Program-made: the position numbers and the translations under genes
Shown: piece by piece, positions 24,029-41,694 of the stretch
Layout: each line of letters begins with the position of its first letter
Position numbering within the stretch: the stretch's first letter is position 1
Assembly (NCBI GenBank): GCA_009192285.1
Contig: WBVU01000012.1
Span: 1,240,001 to 1,304,000, forward strand
Direction: 5' to 3'
Source of the DNA: Morchella semilibera
Taxonomy: Eukaryota > Ascomycota > Pezizomycetes > Pezizales > Morchellaceae
DNA length: 64,000 nucleotides
The notes under the pieces: generated by a model
Database searches by the model: none
Seen by the model: only the letters and a program-made list of their open reading frames with translations
Told to the model about the DNA's origin: nothing

Positions 24029-27000
24029 ATGAAGTCCCCAAATATCGCCATCCTCTTTTCGCTCTTCACGACACTCAGCTTAACCACAGCTCAAGACGCA
24101 CCACCTGCATCCCATTACTCCCCCAGAAATATCAAGCGACTAGTCTCCGATATCCTCAGCGACTCGATCCTCGCAGAACCCAACCCGCCTCCAGCCCCAC
24201 CCCCTTCATCGTCATCAACCGCATCGGCCTCAGCAGCTAGTACCGACATTAGTGCACTCCTCTCATCGTTATTCCCAAGCACAGTCGCACCAGATCCACC
24301 TCAAAGTTCCGATGTCACATATACCGTCAGTGTGCCAACCTCAGATTCCACTACTGCCGCTGCTACTACCGCCTCAGCAAGCGGAATTCTTAACGTTGTT
24401 GACAGTATAGTTGAAGCGCCAAGCTCAATTGTCTCGGAGGCTACCTCGACGGTTGTTGCACCGGTGGTTTCTGGGGTTAGCTCGGTGGCTTCGGTGGCTA
24501 CGAGTGCTGTATCGGAGGTCGTTTCTCAGGGGACTTCTGTAGTATCGGAGGTTACTTCAACGGTCGTTGACGCGGTTTCTCAGGTCACTTCTGCGGCGCA
24601 ATCGGTGGTTTCGGACGTTACCTCAGATGTCAATTCAGTGGTCACATCTGCTGCTGGTAGTGTTACTTCTGTGGTTGATTCTGCAGTTGCGGATGTCACT
24701 TCTGTGGCTAATCCGGTGGTTTCAGGAGTTACGTCTGCGGTCGGTTCGGTTGCTTCCAGTGCGGTTCCAGATGTCACTTCTGCGGTCGGTTCAGTTGCCT
24801 CTAGTGCAGTCCCGGATGTCACTTCTGCGGTCGGTTCGGTTGCCTCTAGTGCAGTCCCGGATGTCACTTCTGCAGTCGGCTCCGTAGCTTCCAGTGCGGT
24901 TCCGGATGTCACTTCTGCTGTTGGTTCGGTTGCTTCCAGTGCGGTCCCAGATATCACTTCTGCGGTCGATTCGGTTGCTTCCAGTGCGGTTCCAGATATC
25001 ACTTCTGCTGTAGGTTCGGTTGCTTCTAGTGCAGTTCCGGATGTCACTTCTGCTGTCGGTTCGGTTGCCTCCAGTGCGGTTCCAGATATCACTTCTGCGG
25101 TCGGTTCGGTTGCTTCCAGTGCAGTTCCGGATGTCACTTCTGCAGTCGGTTCGGTTGCTTCCAGTGCAGTTCCGGATGTCACTTCTGCTGTCGGTTCGGT
25201 TGCCTCCAGTGCGGTTCCAGATATCACTTCTGCGGTCGGTTCGGTTGCTTCTAGTGCAGTTCCGGATGTCACTTCTGCAGTCGGTTCGGTTGCTTCCAGT
25301 GCAGTTCCGGATGTCACTTCTGCTGTCGGTTCGGTTGCTTCCAGTGCGGTCCCAGATATCACTTCTGCTGTCGGTTCGGTTGCTTCTAGCGCGGTTCCGG
25401 ATGTCACTTCTGCTGTCGGTTCGGTTGCCTCCAGTGCGGTTCCAGATATCACTTCTGCGGTCGGTTCGGTTGCTTCTAGTGCAGTTCCGGATGTCACTTC
25501 TGCAGTCGGTTCGGTTGCTTCCAGTGCAGTTCCGGATGTCACTTCTGCGGTCGGTTCGGTTGCTTCCAGTGCGGTTCCGGATGTCACTTCTGCGGTCGGT
25601 TCGGTTGTTTCGGACGTCACCTCTGTAGCCTCTGGTGTCACTTCTGCTGTTGCTTCTGATGCTGCCAGTGCTGTTGTTTCAGGAGCGACTTCTGCAGTTG
25701 GTGATGTTACTTCTGCCGTGGACTCTGCCGCGTCAGGTCTCACTTCTGGTGTTGCAAGTGTCACTTCTATTGCTGGATCTGCGGTCTCAGCTATCGCGTC
25801 TGATGCCACGTCGGTCCCCAGTGCTGTTATTTCAGGAGCAACCTCTATTGCTGGCGATGTTACTTCTGCCGTTGGTTCTGCCGCTTCGGGCATGAGCTCT
25901 AGTGTTGCAGAAATCACCTCTGGTGTTGGCTCTGCAGTCTCATCCGTCGCATCTGATGCCACCGCAGTTGTTAGTAGTGGACTCTCGCAAGTCACTTCTG
26001 CTGCTGGCGCTATCACTTCGGAGGCATCCTCTCTGGTTAGCGATATTACTTCTACTGCCAACAGTGTAGTTTCGGGAGTTCCTTCCGCTGTTGATTCCGC
26101 AGTTTCTGGTGTTACATCTGCTGCTGGCTCTGCTGCTTCAGGTGTAACCTCTGGTGTTGCAGAAATCACCTCTGTTGCTGGCTCTGCGGTTTCCTCTATC
26201 GCGTCTGATGCTACCGCCGTTGTAAGCAGCGGACTCTCGCAAGTCACTACAGTTGCTGGTGTTGTAACTTCGGGAGCATCCTCTCTCGTCAGTGATGTTA
26301 CTTCTGTTGCCAACAGCATGGCCTCAGGTGTTACTTCGGCTGTTGGTTCTGCAGCTTCAGACATTTCTTCGGTCTCTGGAGCTACCTCAGCTATCGATTC
26401 TGCCGCTTCAGGCGTCTCTTCTATCGCCTCAGGTGCTACTTCAGCTCTTAATTCAGGTGTATCTGGCGTTACTTTAGTTACTAGCGGAATTGTCTCACAG
26501 GCTACCTCTGTTGCCGCTGGGGTCTCTTCTGTTGCTAGCAGTGTGGCTTCTGGGGTTACTTCACCTGTCTCCCAAATTACTGATATCGCAAACTCAACTC
26601 TGCCCGACACATCAATCGTCCAAAGCATTCTACCTACCTCAGTTATTCAAAGCGTTCTCCCATCCGACCTCCCAAGTAACTTGAATGGTAATTGATCACC
26701 ATCATCCTGTTTCTCACTCGTGAGTGCTAACGTAACTGTGGTTGTAGATACTATTGCTCCTGTAACATCGATCATTGACGTCTCCTCAGTGGCTTCAAGT
26801 GTATTACCTATTCACACCTCGGATTACGCCATTAACATCACTGTCCCAACTGTTGATATCTCGAGTCTGTTATCAAGTGCCACAAACCTTCCATCCATCA
26901 CTAGCGATATCCCACTCCCTATCCAAACTAATGGGACCATTATTGCGACTTCACTCACTTCTTTGATCTCTGTGATTCCTACCGGAATCTTGACAGATGG

Positions 27001-28447: not shown

Positions 28448-31400
28448 TCTGTTGTCTTTGTATGTGCTGGAAAGGAGGGAAGCAGGACGTTGTTGGAAAC
28501 AAACAATGAAATGGAAAAAGGATCAACGCTTTAGTCAACCTATTTCTGGTTTCAAACATTCCTACTATTAGTTTTATACCCTTTCTTACCAACCGACCGA
28601 CCAACGGATTCGGCCAAAATTTAGATAATTCTTCAATGTCATAAAGTACCACCTTGTCATTTCTTACCCTGTGCGAAACTTGTATCTATACCCGAACTTG
28701 GTTTCATTTTTTTTTTTCGTTTCAGCTTTACATATTTGACTACCCTGTTTTTTTCCCTCTTCTTTACTCTCCTGTTTTTCTTTTTCACGCTTCTTATTCT
28801 CACGGCGTTTGTTGGGTATCAGAATGTTTTATACCTACCTACTTACCTACTTTGGCTGGCTGGCTACGCTGGAAAAATTTATTCACTTCTCTGCCCCGTG
28901 ATTTCACGGGGCGACATCGTATTACACTAATGTCATTTTGGGATTTGGGGGTTTTGCGGGGGCTTTTATATTTTTGATGATGTCAAGTAGGAGGGAGGAT
29001 TAGTTGAATTTAGCTTGGTTTAGCTTGTGTTTTTTGAGTAATATCGCTTGAGTGTTGTCATTTACTATGTTTGCATTTTATTATACCACCACCTTCAATA
29101 TTGCTGAGTTAGCTTTATCGCGCTCTCAATGTATCTCCTTCAGCTCTTAGTGTTAGGGTGGCGACGGTGGTGATTTGAGCTTTGTAATGACGTGGGGTAT
29201 TTGATATTATTTTTTCATAGCGGTGGGTTATTATTTATTTATAATTCTCATAGCGGTGGGTTAGTGTATGGGCTTCATGGAGGGGATAGATTGAGATTTT
29301 GGGGTTGTAATCAAGCTTTTTTGACCTAGAGTGTGATCGCTGGTGACCCAGATTGATACTAGTTGCAATCGAGTGAGTGATAGATGGTGACGCCAAAACC
29401 GAAGTACTCTATTACGCCCTCCCAAAATGCCACACACTTAATATGAGAGAATTTAATAGATATTATCTTAAGCTTGAGGGGGCAAAAATGGTCTTCTAAA
29501 TTGTCTAATAATAGCACATTTGATTTGAAAATTTAAACGTGAAACATACGTTGTCGGCGATGGTCTCTGGGGTTAAGATTTGGCCGCTCAGATGCCCTTT
29601 ATTAAAAATTGACTTTTGAGCCTTCTAAAGCTCCTAGTAATAGTGAGTTTCTAGAAATGAGGTTGATATTCGTCCGGTATACACCTATCAAGGATACTCA
29701 TTGATTATTAATGACCACTCAAAACTTCTCTTTGTAGTTTATCATGCGTTATAGTACTTTCTTCCACTTAAGTGAGGCTTCAAACCATCCCATAACACTC
29801 GATAATTAGTCACTAATTATCAGCCATTAGCACTAGCTACGCCGAATAAGAGAGAAAACGACTCTGAACTCCAACTCATCTGTTAGGGAGTGTCAAAACT
29901 ACCTTAATTTAGTGGGTCCTATGGCAGGCCTGTGGCCTGGAGCTGGACACTCCATTGTAGTCTCAAACATCACCGATAAAGAGAGAAGAGATGTCTTGTT
30001 TATACTAGCCGCGGTTACTCTTCCAGAAGCAGTCAATATGCAATAATGCAGAAATGTCACGTGCTCTTATAACTAAGATAGATGTGTGTACGTGTGCGTA
30101 ATGACGGAAGAACCCTTCAGCTTTGAGGTCCCAGAATCCCTATAGATATAGCTCATGGCCTATAGTATAGATACCCAGTACAGTACCAAAAAAGGGGATG
30201 TAATAGATACCATAGCAATACGGTATCGTGAAAAAACTTCCGAATTAAATCGGAGCACCGACCATCATACCATAGTAATGCTGTAGCAATACCGGAGTGT
30301 CATGGTATTCTGGCAGATAAGGTACTAGATACACCCGCTTTTTGGGTACTATAGTAATCAACGTACATGTAGTTACGTTACGTTGTGCAGCTGAAATAGG
30401 GGTGGGAGAGGAGGGGTGATACATTGCCGTCTATATACATATACGTATGTATGCGCTCATAAAGATGTAGGGCGAGTACCTGAGCTACTGCCTATATATA
30501 TTGCCATGATTTTTAGGTCTAATCCTATAGTACTTATTTCTGCGTGGGTTTAATCGTCTGGTGGATTATGGCTTGACCGCTGTTTCCCACATACATGTAA
30601 CGAAAGTCACACTGGGCCTGGTTAGGGAATCATAGGCTATCACCCGGTCACCTTAGGTAAGGATACTTATCTATGTGCAGATCAATTGTTATACGTGTCC
30701 TATCACTCTTCTTTTTCAGTAATAATACCTGTCGGTTTTTCGGCCCCATTCTTGTAGATCTATGCAACTGTAAATGTCGTATCATACTGTGGCTATAGAA
30801 ACCAAAACTGGCCATTCGTGACGCTTGCTGAAAAAGACGTTCTATATTACGTGTACTAAGCTTAATCCGGACTCTCATCAAACCCGGTTCGTTGAAGTTT
30901 ATATTAACCATCTAAGGAGAAGCCGCAAGGTATGTCGCTTGTGTCCTCAATTCCGATTGGCCTCAAAGTACCAAACAAGCAATTGAGTTTCCCAAGTTTT
31001 GAATTAAACGATGTGAATGTATGGGTAACTAGGTTCAACCTGGTTTATTTAGCCCCGTTCAACGGATATTGAATTTACACTTCCTGTCTCCACAAAACCC
31101 GGACCATGTCTATTCAATGCCCCCCTCCCACCCCCCCTTCCAGTCTTCGAGAAGAGTGTGCCGTTTCCTTTTTATAAGCTTCGATAGGTTCGGTCGTCGG
31201 AACCCAATCTCCCCGTTATATACCCTGTATAGAGTGGGAGTTTCGGGTCACCTTGTCATTTAACGAATTAAAGGTCACTCCAAGCCACAATAGCGGGCCG
31301 TAAAACGTGGTCCCTAGCCATCGTCCATTAGAATAGGTACATACATACATGTATATATCGTAATCCACTTCTCTGTCCCATGTACCGGCATCTTCTGACC

Positions 31401-32388: not shown

Positions 32389-32391
32389 ACC
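32389..32391. other. left 3-bp target-site duplication (ACC)
   Basis: ACC directly precedes the left terminal repeat and is matched by ACC directly after the right terminal repeat at 41692-41694. The left copy sits within a run of six C's, so its exact placement was fixed by aligning the two termini. Confidence 0.65.
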
Positions 32392-32405
32392 CCCCGTAGT
32401 ACAAG
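32392..32405 (+). repeat. left terminal inverted repeat
   Basis: CCCCGTAGTACAAG, matching 13 of 14 bases of the inverted right terminus. Similarity becomes patchy further in (a shared GCG-rich step), then both sides enter the palindrome arrays. Confidence 0.8.
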
Positions 32406-32415
32406 TGTGCGGGGT

Positions 32416-32866
32416 TTAGTTTAAACCACAGGGTGTGGTTTAATTTAAACGGCGCATGTGGTTTAAACTAAACTACATCAGTGCAAAATTTGTTAGTTAA
32501 TAGTGGTTTAAGTTAAACACCATTTAAACAATAAAATGGTTTAATTGTGGTTTAAGATAGGTTTAATTTAAACCACCCGCGGGTTTGATTTAAACCACGT
32601 TATGGTTTAAAAAAAGTTTAATCTAAACCATACTGAGGTTTAATTTAAACCATAATTTTATATTTTGTTGCTTAAATTGTGGTTTAGATAAACCATCTTT
32701 AAACCACGGCGTGGTTTAAATTAAACCTGAGGGTGGTTTAATTTAAACTACATATTTAAGGCAAACACAATCCGGGTGGTTTAACCTAAACCATAGATTG
32801 TAGTTTAGATTAAACCATACTATTTGTTGTAGTTTAACCTAAACCACAGCATTGTTTAAGTTAAAC
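32416..32866. repeat. left subterminal palindrome array
   Basis: More than a dozen copies and half-copies of GTGGTTTAAnTTAAACCAC-like palindromes, spaced irregularly by about 5-40 bp. The core is GTTTAA, a variable base, then TTAAAC. Such arrays next to transposon termini usually bind transposase or an accessory protein. Confidence 0.9.
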
Positions 32867-33268
32867 TCATCGGTATTCATTTTATTGATCATGACACTAC
32901 ATTTAGATATACTATCGCAAAGTATATATGATCCCGACTCTATTAGTATCATTCGTCCTCCTCCTTGTAGTAATGCTTGTGTTTCATTCTAAATCAATGT
33001 CAAATCATTTACCAGTTCTCTTTCCCCGCTGGCTTTAAACTTTCCCTTCCTCTCCAGTCCTGATTAATATTCTTTTTCTAAACTATCGGAATGTTAGTAC
33101 AATATGATTAGTAGTTGTCATAGTTTGGGGTTACTCACAATGCAAATACTTTTGGTCTTGGTCAAGATTGCGTCTGAAAAAAACATATAGTTTAGCTATA
33201 TGTTACATATACTATACGACGCTTATATAGTATATGTTTTTGTTAGGGTTAGTCTAGTGGATAGTCGT

Positions 33269-35597
33269 CTAGATCGAAAAGTTTTTCTGGCGCTCTTTCA
33301 ATTGTCCCCTGATTATAGCGACATTGTCATTAGTGCGCCTTTGCTCTTTGTCCTCCTCGATCATCTGGGCCTTCTTACTCTTCTGGACGGGTCGGGTGCT
33401 CTTCGGTCTCGTACTGATTGGTCCTGGTTTAGGGAGAATTCCATTGGCAAGGGTATTGGGTTCCTTACGGGGACGTCCAACTTTCCTCTTCATCTTTGGC
33501 TCGCTACCAGTAACCTGGGTTGCTTGGACTTGGGACTCTTCGATTTGAGTTCCCTCGATTTGAGCACCAGGGAGATCATACCCATCGAATTGTGCCTCTT
33601 GAAATTGGGACTCGTTAAGCTGTGAGTCTGGGAGTTGGGTCCCGTAAACGTGTGTCTCAGCTTGAGTCCCTGTTGCGGGCACCACCGGCTGTGATTTTGT
33701 GGTTGCCAAACGATGGACTTGTTTCTTTGTGATAGGCTTGGGCTGAGATTTGGCCTTGCTCTTAGGGGCCTCTACAGCCTTTGGGATGGACTGGTTCTAG
33801 GCGTATGTTAGGTATATATAATTTTATATAAAGGGACTGATTAATATACCTTTTTGGCTCCTCGCATAATCGGTTGTGAAGCGGGGGTACTATTTTTTTT
33901 TTTTTTTTTTTTTTAAGTTAGGACAAACTTCTTGTAATGAGTGTGCTATATTATCATACCTGTGTAGACTGTGGTTGAGAACCATCGTCGTCCTATAATT
34001 ATTAGATCTGGGTTAAATGTAATAAACGGCGATTATTTGGAAACATACTTCAGACTCTCCTCCGGATTCGTACCAAGAGGCATCGGCTACTTTCACGATT
34101 ATTCCGACTTCGCTATATTTGTTGACCACCTTGATCCAGTCCTCCTCGCGCCCGATAGCTTGCCATGGCCCAGGCTTGTTATTGCCTAGGCTCCTAGCAC
34201 GGTATAGCAGAAACCCATTGTCGTCCCAGGTGAGGTGACGAGAAACTCTTTTTTCGAAACCGATATAACCGGTATCACAGGCGATGTAGATGGGGGGTTT
34301 ACCTTTGATAAACACTGGGACCACAGTTGGAGTTTGTTCCTGTTGAGGAACAACAGGCTGTGTCTGTCCCATCTTGGGCTGTGCCGCTTGTGGTTCGTTC
34401 GCGGTAGTGGCCGCTGTAGCTTCGGGCTCCTGTATGATTAATTGCTGATTGGGGGGGGAGGGACAGGACCCAACGGGGGCAGGTGGAGAGGACCCAATGG
34501 TAACCGAAGGGGATGGTTTATTGGTCGGCAAATATGATTCCTGGGCTTGTTGATCCATTGTAGAGTCAGGATCATTTGATCCGTAGTCAAGAACAGGGGG
34601 GGGGACAGCCATGATATGTGCGGTGCCTGGTGCCTTACGCTTATTTTTGCCATAATTCCTGGCATCAATTGCATCTGATTCATCTCCAGAATCCACAACC
34701 CGAGCAGCCGATTTTTTCCGCTTGTTGACAACAGGAGCCACTTTTGTAACAGCAACAGTGGCTGTTTTGTTAGTGTACTTTCCATCCCCGCTCTCATTCA
34801 TTATGGTTTTTTCGGCCCTTTCTCTTGCTCTTTCGTTGCGGATCTTATCGAGGAGGATTGTGTGTAGTAGGTCGCGAGTCAGATCGCGATCCCATTCACT
34901 TCCAAATTTCTTCTTCATGTCCAAGGTCAGCCCCCTTATCAGCCTATACCTTTCCACATGTTCGATTTCATGAAAAGGTTTATCCATCGCGAAACCACGT
35001 CGGTGGCACTTCTCGGTCATGTGCTCCCGACGTTTCCTGACGAGTATGTTGGTGAGTCTATGCTTTGGATCGAGACCCATGCGAACCTTCATCCCTTCTC
35101 TATCTTTGTATCCGGCAGGGATAGCTTTAGATGAATTGGATTTTGTCGGTGTGGTTTCGCCGTCGACGTCATCGGCATCCTCTTTATCAACATCCGAGTC
35201 GAGGTCCTGACTCTGGCCCATGTGCATGGGGGTTTCATCGTTTTCGCTGGTGTCTGTATATGTATCTGGCTGTCGGCGTTGTTTGTGACGATTAGTGGGT
35301 GTCTTGTCACGTGCTGGCGACGAGAAATCCAACGCTTCAGTACGCGCTGCGATAGTTCCCTTGGGTCGCTGTTGTGGGTTCGGCTTATCGGCGCCTGATA
35401 AGGAATTCGAAGTTAGTATTGATTAAGCAAGGGCGCATTGATCACCTACCCTTCGCGCTCTTTCCATTCCCTGGATTTTTTTTGCCCTTGGCATGTGCAG
35501 CCGAACCCCCCGCGTTGGAAGATGTTTTCGCGTGTTCTCGGTGCCATTTTTCCGCGGCAATGCGCTGTTGCTCGGCCATGTACTCCTCGAAGTTCAT
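33269..35597 (-). CDS. AT-hook accessory protein of the transposon
   Basis: Five exons: 35597-35450, 35394-34049, 33992-33960, 33889-33850 and 33796-33269, about 697 residues. The ATG opens MNFEEYMAEQQRIAAEKWH. The first third is charged. A helical block follows (HRLTNILVRKRREHMTEK, then RYRLIRGLTLDMKKKFG). A compact region near the end of exon 2 reads GFLLYRARSLGNNKPGPWQ, then IKVVNKYSEVGIIVKV. Exon 5 has a Gln/Ser-rich repeat built on SQxxE/TQxxE and an AT-hook, KRKVGRPRKEP. I know no matching family. AT-hooks bind the minor groove of AT-rich DNA, so the element's own TTTAAnTTAAA palindromes are a natural target; this is inference. Exon 4 joins exons 3 and 5 only if one C of the five-C run at 33883-33887 is ignored, so either the splice model or the base count is wrong there. 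Intron 3 contains a run of about 20 A's. Confidence 0.72.
33882..33914. repeat. homopolymer pair in accessory gene
   Basis: A five-base G run (C on the coding strand) and a run of about 20 T's, separated by a few bases, at intron 3/exon 4 of the accessory gene. Both are error-prone for sequencing and bear on whether that gene is intact. Confidence 0.7.
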
Positions 35598-35813
35598 TTT
35601 ACGCGATGGTGAGATAAAAGTGCGGGTTTTTGGTGATGGATGGTGGATAGTGATGATGCAAGAGGAGAAAGGTAGAAGTGCAGTTAGAGGCGAGGAGATG
35701 GAGAGGGTTGGGTGATGTCTGAGTTGACAGGGACAAAGACTAGTCTAGAATAGGTATAGTCACGCAGGGAAAAGGCTTGTATGCTGGGTTAGGTTTTAAT
35801 ATACATTTTACTA

Positions 35814-38800
35814 TCAAAACAAACATGTATAGCGAAGTACGATATATTCTTGCCCTTTATTCTTTACAATCCCTATTAACTCACGTATCTGACTCGCTTC
35901 AATTACTTCCTTTATTCCCATTCCTGATTTATAAAGTAGTCGACCGTCTTTGCGTACATGGAAAGGTTGGATGTATGCCAAATCCTTGGCGTGCAGGGCT
36001 TGGCTCTCCATGGCAAGTTCCCCAGCACCCGATATCTCAGTATCAGACTCTCCAACACCTAAAACGACCGAAAAAAAAAAATATCACTTCTCCATATTTA
36101 CTGCGCAAGGATCCATCCATATCGTATACCTCATATCGAACCAATGAAGAACTTCTACTAGAATTGCTTTTTTTCATAGTAGAAGATGTAATTATGACAG
36201 ACTCCTCATGATCATGATCGACTCCTCCGGAATCGATACCAAACAAGGGCGAATTTATAGATAACATGGGCCAGCGGGTGCATTTCTTCGGCACGTCTTC
36301 CAAGAGAATCTCCATGATTATTGACTGAAGGGCTTCTGTATGGTTGTCCCGGTTTTCGCATTGGTCCATATATGTCTTTAAAGCTCGACGTTGCCAACTG
36401 TTAAGAACGCCCGTCCTTGGATGCCCTCTAAAACTTGTACCATGTTTCGCCTTTTGTCGTCGTTGCGTAGGATCCTTGCGCATTATATTTATGAAGGTAC
36501 GATGTAACAACACATTACCATCGTTGTCTTCGAATTCCGTCTCGGCCTCGCTCCTGTTACCACGAGGCAACACATATGGCAGGTGATTCCGCTGTTCATT
36601 GAGTGTCATAGTGATAGCCATATTACGGTTAGCAGACACTTTGGACTTTGCTGTCGATGCGATCATCCCGCACACTCTTTCCATGGGCCATTGCCAGTAT
36701 ACAAACATAGGGCCTGCCCACCGCATTGCATCTGCAACATGCAGAAGTTGATGGAAGACTGGAAGGCACGCAGATAGTTTGTCCCAACGCTTCTGGTAGT
36801 AGCGACGCTCATAGTACTCTGCAAAACGACGAAGTCGCCCTTCGATAACCGAAATCTCGGCGTTTGTGACCTCATAATCACAGGATAGGCGAACGGCGTC
36901 TATGAGATTAAGAAACTCCTCATAGTCCTCCGGGAGCCTATTCTTCAAATAGATCGGTGCTAGCAGTAGAGCGAATATCTTCCATTCGGAGGCCTTCATA
37001 TGCCCACAATGTTCGACGAAATTTCGAACTGGTTCCCCAAATAAAGCAGGGAAAGTTTTCGCGCTGTTTGACATGTCCTTGCTGATTTCTAGCCACTCAC
37101 TTGGGGGTATATTATAAGGATCATCCGTCTCTACAAACCTTTTGGTAGCATTTGATGGCCTGACCCTATCCGGGAAAAACTTGCCACGCCAATGTTTAAC
37201 CATATCTGGGATTATATTCTCCCACCATAGATGCATGGCGTCAGGAGGGAAGCTCCGGGGTATGTCAATGGAACTCAGCTCATGTAAACAAGAGGGTCCT
37301 TTAATACCGAAATTCTTTGCAGCTCTGTCGTCACCAGTTTCAAGCACGTGCTTGGCGATCTTGCGCGAATCGATATCGTTCCTGTCAGGCAGACTAGACG
37401 ATTTGTAAAGCTTCCAATCGGGGTTGGGATTTGGTGCATCCGAGGGTGGTGTTAAGGGACAATAAATGCCACGATTATGAACACCTTTTATGTAACAATA
37501 CGGGCAATAACTCGTCGCCCGATTCCCTTTGAAATTCATCACCTTCTCTCTACCGGGCATATCAGCGCCGATTACAACGATATGAGCTCTGAGAGTAAAG
37601 AACTCCCTTCGGGCGGCATTCCACACTCCACGTACACCTGCCTCCAAACGGACAAACTCTTGTAATAAAGGGAAGAGAAAAGAGTCTAGATCTTTTGGGT
37701 TGTTGGGTCCCGGGACAAAACCGACAAGGAGCATATTGCGTTTCTTGAACCTCTGATTAGGCGGCATGTTCAAGTTTATCTAAAGGATATACAATATATA
37801 ATTATAGTTAGCATATACCGAATATACTACAATGGACATATTCTGGTGATAGGAAATTTTTTAAATACCAAAAGAATAGGCCATATGCTAAATGGCTTCC
37901 GAGTCTTGAAGACCCGTACTCCATCAGTACTCAACATAAAGGCCATATCTGTATCGCGTTGAAAGAGACCTTCAATGTTATATACATATAATCAGCTACA
38001 GAACCTCAACTTCTTTGCGGCGCTTAACATCAACCAATAATATACAAAAACATACCTTTCTTGTTTTTCATTTCCTTAAACAATTCGCTTGACCAATAAT
38101 CAGAGCGCATGTCACGAGCAATATCTTGCTCTGCAGAGCAACGATACGATACTAGACTTTCAGCGGTGTCCGAGTCTGAAAATAACAAACGCAAGCGGTG
38201 AATCACGGGGATATAACTGTGAGTGGCGGAAGGTATTTTCGACGCGCCCTCTCTTTGACCAGCCTTCCAACGCGGTATATTGCAATGCATGCATTTATCA
38301 AGATCAGGATACATGGAATATGACATATGACTTTCTGGACAACAATCATATTGGATTTCGTCGATACCTGTCCACCGTGTGATTCTTGATCTAATAGTCC
38401 GATAGTCGAGTGGTTTGCTATACACGGCCAAGAGATCTGCGTAGTCTTTAGCACCCTCACGAGGTATCTTATTTTTGAGCGCTATGTCGTGGAGGGCTAG
38501 ACTAGTCATTTCATGTTCAGATAAAATATTGATAGGGTTCCTGTAGTCGAAATCATCCTGTTCATCTGCAGAATCCTCGAAGTCATCCTCCAGATGCATT
38601 TCATCAAGATCCGCATCATCATCTGAGCTAATAAGAGAATCCCCGGACGACTCAGACTCATCTGGCCTGATGAATCCTTGGTGCATCTGTCCAACCTCAC
38701 CAACCTGATCGCTTTGACCATCACTCACATCTGTGATGTCGTCGTCAAGACAAAACAAAGGCTCCTCCTCGTCCATAGAATCATCACTTCCTGACAGTTC

Positions 38801-39562
38801 TGATTCCTGATACATAAAATCATCTGCTTCCAATCCGGGCCCAAGCTCTGGATCCAGAGAAACCGGAGAGGAATGCATAGCAACATCAGGTACCAAGGGA
38901 CTTTGTACCGAACGAGAATGTTGTACGTGTTGTCCTGACAGATCCACCACTGGTGCATCATCTTCCTCTTCAACATAATCTGCTGCACCACCGGGATAGA
39001 CATCAATCATCTCTTCATCACTACCATCCTCATCCTCCACATCCGAACTGTTTTCTTCGGCTAAGTCACTATCTTCGTCGCCTAATTCGTTTTCAATTGA
39101 TTTATCGCTAGCTGGCGACGCAGGCGGGAGTGGTTCGGCGTCTTCGTCTTCATCGGAGCTATCGTTAGCAGGCGAAACAGGCGGGCCGAATTGTTGGAGT
39201 TCTCCATCATCGTCTGAACTATTATTGTCATCGTCTTCAACATCTTCAACATCATGCAGCTCGTTATGCAATTCAGATACAATAAGCCCATTTTCACCGT
39301 CAGAACTCGACTGGCTGGATCCGGAATCGCTATCCTCTGGTTCCCTATCCGGTACAGGTACTGGAGGCTGGCTGATTACACGAGACTGCGCACCCCCAGA
39401 TAATAGACGTCGACGGTTCTGCGTATAACTCAATGAACTTTCTAATGTAGATCTTCGCATATCGGACCTCTTCACTGCTTGATGCCTCAACCAATCTTGC
39501 TGATTCCGCACAATGTGTACCACCCCCCCCAACATCGAGCAATCGCATTCCCGCAACATCAT
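35814..39562 (-). CDS. Tnp2/Plavaka-type transposase
   Basis: Four exons: 39562-38056, 37969-37869, 37779-36102 and 36058-35814, giving 1,176 residues with every phase consistent and no stop. The start MMLRECDC resembles the N-termini of this family; the next ATG is adjacent. A long acidic region (about 90-330) is followed by a Cys cluster (YDCCPESHMSYS, then DLDKCMHC, about 405-427) and the ATHSYIPVIHRLRLLF segment. Exon 2 supplies MAFMLSTDGVRVFK and IWPILL; exon 3 opens INLNMPPNQRFKKRNMLLVG, then FVPGPNNPKDLDSFLFPL, RAHIVVIGADMPGREKVMNF and FPPDAMHLWWENIIPDMV. These are hallmarks of fungal Tnp2 transposases (RNase H-fold cut-and-paste enzymes). The last intron, 43 bp with a T11 run, is short but restores a 245-bp open exon. 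I could not assign all catalytic acids by eye. Confidence 0.88.
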
Positions 39563-39876
39563 GTAAGTAGTGATACAGCCGATCTTATCGCGAAAAAATG
39601 ATGAAATATCGATGATGGGTCGTCGTGATTGGAGATGCAATTGGATGCGCATGCATGATGCACAGAAAGTAGATGGATGCACTAGATGTGGGGCAGTTAT
39701 AGAGTTGTCACGTGATAAACAGTACTGTAGCAACGGAGCTATAGCTACCAACCCCACAAGTACTATATAGCTAACCTCGACATCTCCTCCGGATCCGCAT
39801 CTCCTTCCAAAAACATCAACCTCATCACAATATCATCACAAAGACACTCTGATCTCGATCTTCATCGGAAATAGAG

Positions 39877-40351
39877 ATGGAACCGACCAAAAAAGAAGAA
39901 ATTCCGCGTAAGGGGAAAGTTGGCATTGTTTGTAAGTAACATAAAGACCTGATCATGATTAGATCTAGACAACATGGAGCTGTACACGCGGACCAAACTG
40001 CATTTCGCGTCAATGGAACTCCAGTTCCATTTTATCATCATTAAACTAACATCAATGCCCATATCAGATGTCGATAATAGTCTCTACCCAGGACGTACAC
40101 CTCGCGTTGGCTGGCGGTATTGGATCAACAAAGCCTGGTCTGCCGAGGATATTCCAACTATCGGAGCTCAATTGCAAAGACTAGAGGGCAATTTGTTGGT
40201 GTTGTGTGGCTGGGTCAGGGTCAAGGACTACGAACATATTATGCACCACCTCAATAACAACCGCTATGTCTGTGGCCTTGTTGTTGAAAAAGAGCCCTTC
40301 ATATGGGACGATGACGACTGCTGCATCAGCAAGACTTCATTTGTCTCCTGA
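39877..40351 (+). CDS. small transposon-borne protein, unknown function
   Basis: Two exons, 39877-39931 and 40068-40351, giving 112 residues. The donor is GTAAGT, the branch ACTAACA and the acceptor ATCAG; phases agree. It starts MEPTKKEEIPRKGKVGIV and runs divergently from the transposase, about 315 bp from that start, so both may share a promoter. The body (YPGRTPRVGWRYWINKAWS, LEGNLLVLCGWVRVKDYE, NRYVCGLVVEKEPF) looks like a compact alpha/beta domain. Its last 45 residues loosely resemble the end of exon 2 of the accessory protein (GPWQAIGREEDWIKVVNKY against a CGW...KDYEHIMHHL segment). That resemblance is weak and by eye. The first exon is short, so the start is less certain than the body. 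Confidence 0.55.
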
Positions 40352-40435
40352 TGTCTCCTGAGCCTCAGGAGACTCAAAAAATATCCAGGAGTCTCAGGAG
40401 ACTCTCAGGAGACCTGGGAGACTGCTGGGAGACTC
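40343..40435. repeat. GGAGACTC fold-back repeat cluster
   Basis: It starts at the stop codon of the small gene. A perfect inverted repeat, GTCTCCTGAG-C-CTCAGGAGAC (40353-40373), is followed by several direct and inverted copies of CAGGAGACTC and GGGAGACT. Its function is unknown; a small insertion or slippage product is likely. Confidence 0.8.
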
Positions 40436-40930
40436 CAGTCACAAGTTGAGTTTGCTGATGTGCTGGGGTCATATGGAATGGGAAGTTGTCGATATTCCGG
40501 CTGATAAATCCGGAAAGAATGCAACTGAAGCTGCCGGTGTCAATAAAGGGAAAAACTAATATACATGATGGAACGGATCGGTGCACGTGGTGGACCAGCT
40601 GCAGTTTAGTTGATCTCCGGATATGTTTACAGTACAGTGATCTTATTAATGTATAGAGGTGGACAGCAAAGTCAATTCTATGTTCAGTACTAAACTACAC
40701 ATTAACAATAGACAAATTAAACAGCGATTCGCGATCGATGATCAACATATATACATGTATAGTTACTCAAATAAATACAAAACGTACGTGTGCGCATGCC
40801 TATATATATAATTACAGACTATATAGACTTAATTATAAATCGATATCGGTGATAACTACAACTTGCAATCATGTAGATAAATAGAATGCAGGATATAATT
40901 CAGTCATCGATATCGAGGACGGTAGTTATA

Positions 40931-41664
40931 GTTTAAATAAAACAACAGGGAAATTGTAGTTTAATACAAACAATCATTAAACCACATAACGGTTTAAATT
41001 AAACAACGACCGTCCAGTTAGACAAAAGGGTTTAACTTAGACCACACGAGTGTTTAATTTAAACCGTGCGTGGTTTAGATTAAACAACGATATTATCTAC
41101 TAGCATATGCATCGTATAATGGTTTAAGTTAAACAATAAAAGTTGTTTGAATTAAACCACAGGAACAACGACCTAGTTAACGGTCTGCGCTAAGCCGTGG
41201 TTTAAATCAAACCACTGTCATTAATAATTAATTTAAACCACAGTGTGGTTTAAATCAAACAATGGTAATAGTTTAAGTTAAACAACTGTTATCAATTGGT
41301 TTAAACATAGAGTGGTTTAAATCAAACTACGATATGGTTTAAAATAAACCACTATCATTTACAATAAATTTAAACCACATTGTGGTTTGATTTAAACCAC
41401 TATCATTAAATAATTTATTTAAACCACCCGATCGTTTGATTTAAACCCCGTCATGGTTTAAATCAAACCACAATTAAATGGTAGCCTTTGGGGTTTAAGT
41501 TAAACTACGACATCGTTTAAATTAAACCACAAAATCGTTTAAATTAAACCACTTTAAACCCGACCGAGAACATGTGGTTTAAGTTAAACTACACTTAAAC
41601 CATGGTGTTTAAGTTAAACAACAGAACACCCCGGTTAAACCATAGTGTGGTTTAACCTAAACCA
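40931..41664. repeat. right subterminal palindrome array
   Basis: About twenty copies and half-copies of the same GTTTAAnTTAAAC palindrome as at the left end, over about 730 bp. The array is longer than the left one (about 450 bp), so the ends are asymmetric. Spacers between units are unrelated in sequence. Confidence 0.9.
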
Positions 41665-41677
41665 TACTAGTGCGGGT

Positions 41678-41691
41678 CTTGTACTACAGGG
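41678..41691 (-). repeat. right terminal inverted repeat
   Basis: Reads CCCTGTAGTACAAG on the minus strand, with one mismatch to the left terminus. ACC follows at 41692-41694. Confidence 0.8.
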
Positions 41692-41694
41692 ACC
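41692..41694. other. right 3-bp target-site duplication (ACC)
   Basis: ACC directly follows the right terminal repeat and matches the ACC at 32389-32391. Confidence 0.65.

Follow-up and report, generated by a model that had tools for sequence, protein, structure and literature searches.

Within a 64,000-bp window of the Morchella semilibera genome (C11:1240001-1304000; 56.7 Mb in 23 contigs), a 9.3-kb DNA transposon occupies window positions 32392-41691 and starts with CCC where a CACTA element would start with CAC. This raises the question of whether the element is complete, to which group it belongs and how its ends relate to those of CACTA elements. We refer to it as E1 and to its relatives in the same genome as E2-E16. 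Very probably, E1 is a complete and potentially autonomous cut-and-paste transposon of the CACTA/EnSpm-Mirage-Chapaev (CMC) group, which belongs to a fungal lineage with CCC ends, the sister group of this genome's CAC-ended elements, and moves by the mechanism proposed below.

Borders, genes and transposase of E1

E1 is flanked on both sides by ACC, and the order from left to right is accessory gene A (-), transposase (-), accessory gene B (+) and right end. The splice sites of all three genes are predictions, placed by eye from the sequence. The features are given below in window positions.

32389-32391, no strand: left target-site duplication ACC, same letters at 41692-41694
32392-32405, + strand: left terminal inverted repeat CCCCGTAGTACAAG, 13/14 identical to the right end, motif family-wide
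32406-32891, no strand: left subterminal repeat array, palindromic GTGGTTTAA-N-TTAAACCAC type, first 500 bp with 20 half-sites (at most 1 mismatch), interior with 0
33269-35597, - strand: accessory gene A, predicted exons 35597-35450, 35394-34049, 33992-33960 and 33796-33269, 684 aa, open spliced frame with putative GT-AG introns, homologues in other elements
33464-33490, - strand: AT-hook-like motif KRKVGRPRK in the last exon of A
34064-34333, - strand: conserved C-terminal domain of A, about 90 aa (alignment A3, 9 rows)
34802-35128, - strand: conserved region of A, about 110 aa, helical by reading of the sequence (alignment A2, 11 rows)
35814-39562, - strand: tnp2-type DDE transposase, predicted exons 39562-38056, 37969-37869, 37779-36102 and 36058-35814
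39877-40351, + strand: accessory gene B, predicted exons 39877-39931 and 40068-40351, 112 aa, open spliced frame, 14-row alignment
40892-41677, no strand: right subterminal repeat array, 34 half-sites in the last 800 bp
41678-41691, - strand: right terminal inverted repeat, reverse-complemented CCCTGTAGTACAAG, 13/14 identical to the left end
41692-41694, no strand: right target-site duplication ACC, same letters at 32389-32391

With putative introns of 86, 89 and 43 nt, all GT-AG, the four transposase exons join into a frame of 1,176 aa with a terminal stop only, which reproduces exactly the unbroken protein reported in a preliminary description of the locus; the termini, the ACC flanks and the two accessory proteins on which that description had based its claim of a complete transposon were also confirmed. 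The spliced protein matched the Pfam model Transposase_21 (tnp2) with an E-value of 1.3e-20 (73.9 bits against a cut-off of 28.6, residues 492-633), and also DUF1258 (2.3e-9). The catalytic set consists of D518, D609, C628/C631, H879/H883 and E903, with the C(2)C motif (CPYC) and the H(3)H motif (HQLLH) located between the second D and the E. A C(2)C and H(3-4)H signature is given for EnSpm, Plavaka and their relatives (Kojima 2025, PMC12730594), and since the residues from D518 to E903 fit this signature, E1 is placed in the CMC group. The D-G-x3-F-...-W-P motif of DeMarco 2006 (PMC1636069) was likewise found in E1, as DGVRVF...WPI. Among 16 transposases of the genome, a set that includes three near-identical copies, both Ds are kept in 16/16 and C(2)C in 15/16, the second C being missing in E4, and H(3)H and E are kept in 15/15 of those with letters at these positions.

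The ends of E1 read CCCC.. and CCCT.., not the CAC..GTG of strict CACTA termini, and the ACC/ACC duplication, as read from the flanks alone, has the 3-bp length of CACTA/EnSpm elements. The end pattern CCCNGTRGTACAA occurs 35 times in the genome, as compared to 6 times for the backwards control, and 10 of these occurrences coincide with element ends that were read.

Relatives of E1 in the same genome

Searches of the genome recovered 63 pieces matching the frame of transposase exon 3, 16 matching A and 21 matching B. The transposase cores of the 15 relatives included in the tree are 45-69% identical to that of E1, with E10 compared across 329 columns only. The relatives with both ends read, and a short element, are the following.

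E2, C17:481738-491131: duplication ATG (3 bp)
E5, C2:4149806-4158639: duplication TTGC (4 bp)
E6, C17:420973-430063: duplication GTTG (4 bp), or alternatively TTG, one extra G then going to the right end
E7, C1:5519548-5528899: duplication TTAC (4 bp)
E8, C17:546019-554203: duplication CTTT (4 bp)
E12, C4:2662804-2672164: duplication ACT (3 bp)
E16, C4:696091-705450: duplication ACT (3 bp)
E13, C21:1480750-1490109: duplication AGG (3 bp)
C5:688074-688603: 530-bp element with E1-type ends and repeats, without room for the genes

The flanks match in 9 of the 10 elements read at both ends, E1 included, which bears out the CCC ends and 3-bp duplication first reported for E1. When left and right flanks were paired across different elements as a control, 3 of 90 pairs matched at 3 bp (E12/E16 both ways, and E6/E5) and 0 of 90 at 4 bp.

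A maximum-likelihood tree of the 16 transposases separates nine from seven across a branch with 100/100 support. On the side with nine members, CCC was found at one or more ends of every element read (E1, E2 and E4-E9, eight in all), and on the side with seven members CAC was found in the same manner in all five that were read (E11, E12, E13, E14 and E16); the ends of E3, E10 and E15 are unread. E1 and E2 group with E3 (100/99). The elements with 4-bp duplications (E5-E8) do not form one group in the tree, so that two changes are needed. The CCC end of E1 differs from the CAC end at position 2, and because CCC and CAC elements split at a single branch, CCC ends can be regarded as a variant of CACTA-type ends; the tree, rooted at its midpoint for drawing only, gives no direction for the change. 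As judged from this tree and the ends, E1 is a member of a CCC-ended lineage that is sister to the CAC-ended elements, in agreement with the earlier view of a distinct lineage. On the same sequence evidence, the relatives support the borders of E1 and indicate that elements of this kind are able to alter their ends.

Recent activity had also been proposed for E1, but near-identical copies point to it for a CACTA-ended relative only. E12, E13 and E16, which start CACTATGGTACA / CACTATGGTACAT, are 99.8-99.9% identical across 4.7 kb in three non-allelic places, which suggests that this family moved recently. The C21 copy (E13) has an allele on C22, 99.7-99.8% identical. E1 itself is single-copy and offers no such evidence of recent movement.

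Some results count against a complete and potentially autonomous element. Searches with the flanks of E1 found no empty site or allele in the assembly, returning the window itself and, for the left flank, pieces of an unrelated repeat of about 175 bp. The search for further copies that had been called for yielded relatives with similar ends and no second copy of E1 in the genome at the DNA level, where its other matches are only pieces of 44 to 812 bp with 65-84% identity. In addition, no exact duplication flanks the 530-bp element, although its ends and repeats, without room for the genes, fit movement in trans.

We consider it somewhat unlikely that E1 is an old element that no longer moves and has frames that are still undecayed. 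Such an element might well be present as a single copy, and relatives such as E2 have stops in A, but E1 retains three open frames with putative GT-AG introns (1,176, 684 and 112 aa), as well as intact ends and ACC flanks.

Subterminal repeats and accessory proteins

The half-sites of the subterminal repeats are confined to the ends of E1: 54 GTGGTTTAA half-sites with at most 1 mismatch are located in the outer 500 + 800 bp and 0 in the interior, as compared to 14 in the remaining 54.7 kb of the window. In 300 first-order Markov shuffles of the E1 ends, the mean was 1.7 half-sites and the maximum 7. Ten half-site pairs in the whole of E1 are spaced as 19-bp palindromes, and the single-strand fold of 41180-41691 gave z = -11. 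Genome-wide, 19 such palindromes (at most 1 mismatch) were identified, of which 17 are in E1, E2, E5, E7 and E8, and the control gave 0. The remaining 2 of the 19 are two adjoining near-palindromes of the E1 type at C11:1954299-1954339, outside the described elements.

The three letters preceding GTTTA vary between elements, being mainly GTG in E1, E2, E4, E5 and E8, AGT in E6, ACT in E12 and mixed, with GTT, in E7. These counts cover the right end only for E4 and E9, the left end only for E11 and less than 210 bp of the right end for E5 and E8; the sequence of E9 is too little to tell. The left end of E11 contains ACACAATTAA-type repeats instead of the GTTTA type. Subterminal repeats diverge among plant CACTA elements too (PMC2613891). 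The idea that A is restricted to elements with GTTTAA-core repeats was dropped, since E11, with its other left-end repeats, holds an A-like gene (7.5e-10).

We propose that the tnp2-type DDE transposase would cut at CCC[CT]GT[AG]GTACA ends and join them to a staggered target, leaving the 3-bp duplication. Protein A would bind the AT-rich palindromic repeat arrays, with its AT-hook possibly reading the A/T-rich GTTTAA-TTAAAC core, and would thereby gather both ends in the manner of TNPA of maize Spm, and B may assist or regulate the complex of transposase and A. These roles are modelled on maize Spm, which requires both TNPA and TNPD and has its subterminal repeats bound by TNPA (PMC2613891). 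By this analogy, A is a candidate binder of the palindromic subterminal repeats.

A and B are present in both groups of the transposase tree. Of the 11 elements that have an A gene, 9 carry an AT-hook-like motif within A or downstream of it on the same strand, found by a strict pattern in E1, E2, E5, E6, E7 and E12 and by a relaxed pattern only in E3, E8 and E9; a short A-like piece in E10 was left out of this count, and E13 and E16 are unread there. A possible 40-nt exon of A was left out because it breaks the frame. B and the transposase point the same way in E6 and are divergent in the other eight elements. The 21 B-like matches comprise 11 in E1-E7, E11 and E14 (alleles included), of which the match given to E3 is tentative since it is located 9.3 kb from the E3 transposase, and ten elsewhere.

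The accessory proteins also supply points that weigh against the proposed roles. Pattern searches found no AT-hook in E4 and E11, both of which have an A gene, the AT-hook exon of the relatives was placed by position and strand and not by a gene model, and the relaxed pattern gave many chance hits in other frames as well. Profile searches with both conserved regions of A, and with B, found no accepted Pfam or PDB relative, in accordance with the earlier remark that the two proteins match nothing recognised, and single-sequence AlphaFold models of B and of the C-terminal domain of A were poor (mean predicted local distance difference test score, pLDDT, of 47). The A match in E2 and the B match in E6 contain stops. 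B may moreover have a wider role, since 10 of the 21 B-like matches are located outside the described elements.

Other candidate assignments were rejected. A RING model was hit by two members of alignment A2 (best 1.1e-4); by reading of the sequence, this depends on a CGHTICLDC-like stretch, the cysteines of which are not conserved in other rows. A ThreeFoil match of the C-terminal domain of A (2.5e-4) was the sum of repeated weak matches to a repetitive protein. A PB1/beta-grasp reading of the A C-terminus and a HIRAN-like reading of B were impressions only, with no profile support.

An alternative that we regard as unlikely is that B, and not A, binds the subterminal repeats, with A being a scaffold or chromatin factor that uses its AT-hook for general A/T binding only. 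AT-hooks bind A/T-rich DNA in the minor groove with little sequence preference, and B is small and conserved, with 7 invariant residues in the 14 rows of its alignment, and occurs in elements with different repeats (E11 and E14). Yet there was no B match in the CAC-ended family of E12, E13 and E16, the repeats of which retain the GTTTAA core and whose member E12 has an A gene that includes an AT-hook; no B match was found in E8 and E9 either, parts of both of which are unread. Binding by A remains the reading that we prefer.

The B-like matches away from the described elements are at the loci L061, L062, L064, L065/L066, L069, L070/L071 and L074. The L070 and L071 stretches (C1 and C23) are 99.7% identical along all 3.26 kb, and the B-like frame of L064 is flanked on both sides by direct repeats of about 395 bp that are 87% identical.

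Comparison with known systems and genomic setting

The likeness to plant CACTA elements that had been noted for E1 holds, and extends to CACTA/EnSpm elements in general (maize Spm/En, fungal EnSpm and Cryptococcus CNIRT6), with which E1 shares a tnp2-type transposase, a 3-bp duplication, dense subterminal repeats and a separate, presumed repeat-binding protein. CNIRT6 is a mobile fungal CACTA element that leaves 3-bp duplications (PMC12810828). E1 differs in that its ends are CCC..GGG and not CAC..GTG (CACTG in CNIRT6), in that its A has no Pfam match and in that it has a third gene, B.

The TRC elements (SmTRC1 of Schistosoma, and those of Tribolium and Aedes) are three animal relatives of CACTA elements with CCC ends and 2-bp duplications (DeMarco 2006, PMC1636069), and CCC ends are thus not new as such. 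According to the same source, TRC elements resemble E1 in their Transposase_21 domain, in terminal inverted repeats starting with CCC (CCCTAG in Tribolium) and in a rapidly evolving second protein, proposed to take the part of TNPA. The duplication is 2 bp in TRC and 3 bp in E1, in a comparison made by description only. The terminal inverted repeats of fungal relatives could not be defined in that study (PMC1636069), and no report of CCC-ended fungal elements was found in searches of the open-access literature, a scope that excludes Repbase and the supplement of Kojima 2025.

Of the initial label "Tnp2/Plavaka-like", the first half stands and the second does not. A Plavaka-type element is very improbable, since the Pfam Plavaka model has no match in the spliced transposase at E<=10 or in the element DNA and the termini of PlavakaA and PlavakaB, TGT..ACA and CATCA..TGATG (PMC12730594), are unlike those of E1, even though Plavaka elements share CMC-type catalytic motifs, occurrence in fungi and 2-3 bp duplications with E1, have transposases recognisably similar to those of EnSpm (Kojima 2025, PMC12730594) and are abundant in this genome (128 matches of the model in a control search, 0 of them inside E1). 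Five of the Plavaka matches have the same score, 188.6 bits, and share a single in-frame TAG, a pattern that suggests an amplified copy, either already broken or with an intron at the TAG.

A further comparison is within the genome. E12, E13 and E16 resemble E1 in having a homologous transposase (45% identical in the core), GTTTAA-core repeats, 3-bp duplications and, in E12, an A-like gene with an AT-hook. They differ in their ends (CACTATGG..CCTCGGTG), in the repeat flank (ACT, as compared to GTG in E1) and in having no B match, and the transposase and A of E12 face away from each other.

Elsewhere in the window, the repeat of about 175 bp in the left flank of E1 (30179-30353) has at least 39 further genome matches of similar extent with 79-94% identity, allele pairs counted, and is probably a small non-autonomous element of a different type. 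The window also contains a chitin synthase frame and, at 24029-26695, an 888-aa frame with a 45-bp tandem repeat (19.5 copies, 89% matches), across which a 682-aa frame is open on the other strand. The contig pairs C9/C10, C12/C13 and C21/C22 have near-identical matches at nearly equal coordinates, with none for the E1 stretch, so that both haplotypes seem to be present in the assembly for only part of the chromosomes.

Tentatively, and with somewhat less than even confidence, we suggest that one transposase lineage in one genome may have switched the ends that it recognises between CAC and CCC along a single branch, altered its cut spacing from 3-bp to 4-bp duplications (E5-E8) and repeatedly replaced the flank of its palindromic subterminal repeats (GTG-, AGT-, GTT- and ACT-GTTTAA) around a constant core, and that A and B, an accessory set belonging to no described family, may have kept these changes in step. 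For two sister groups in this genome, the ends, the duplications and the accessory genes have now been read, so that CCC and CAC ends stand next to each other. This makes it testable how CACTA-type elements alter the DNA that is recognised by the transposase and the repeat-binding protein while mobility is kept, and repeats whose flanks vary naturally while their core stays fixed provide material for binding swaps.

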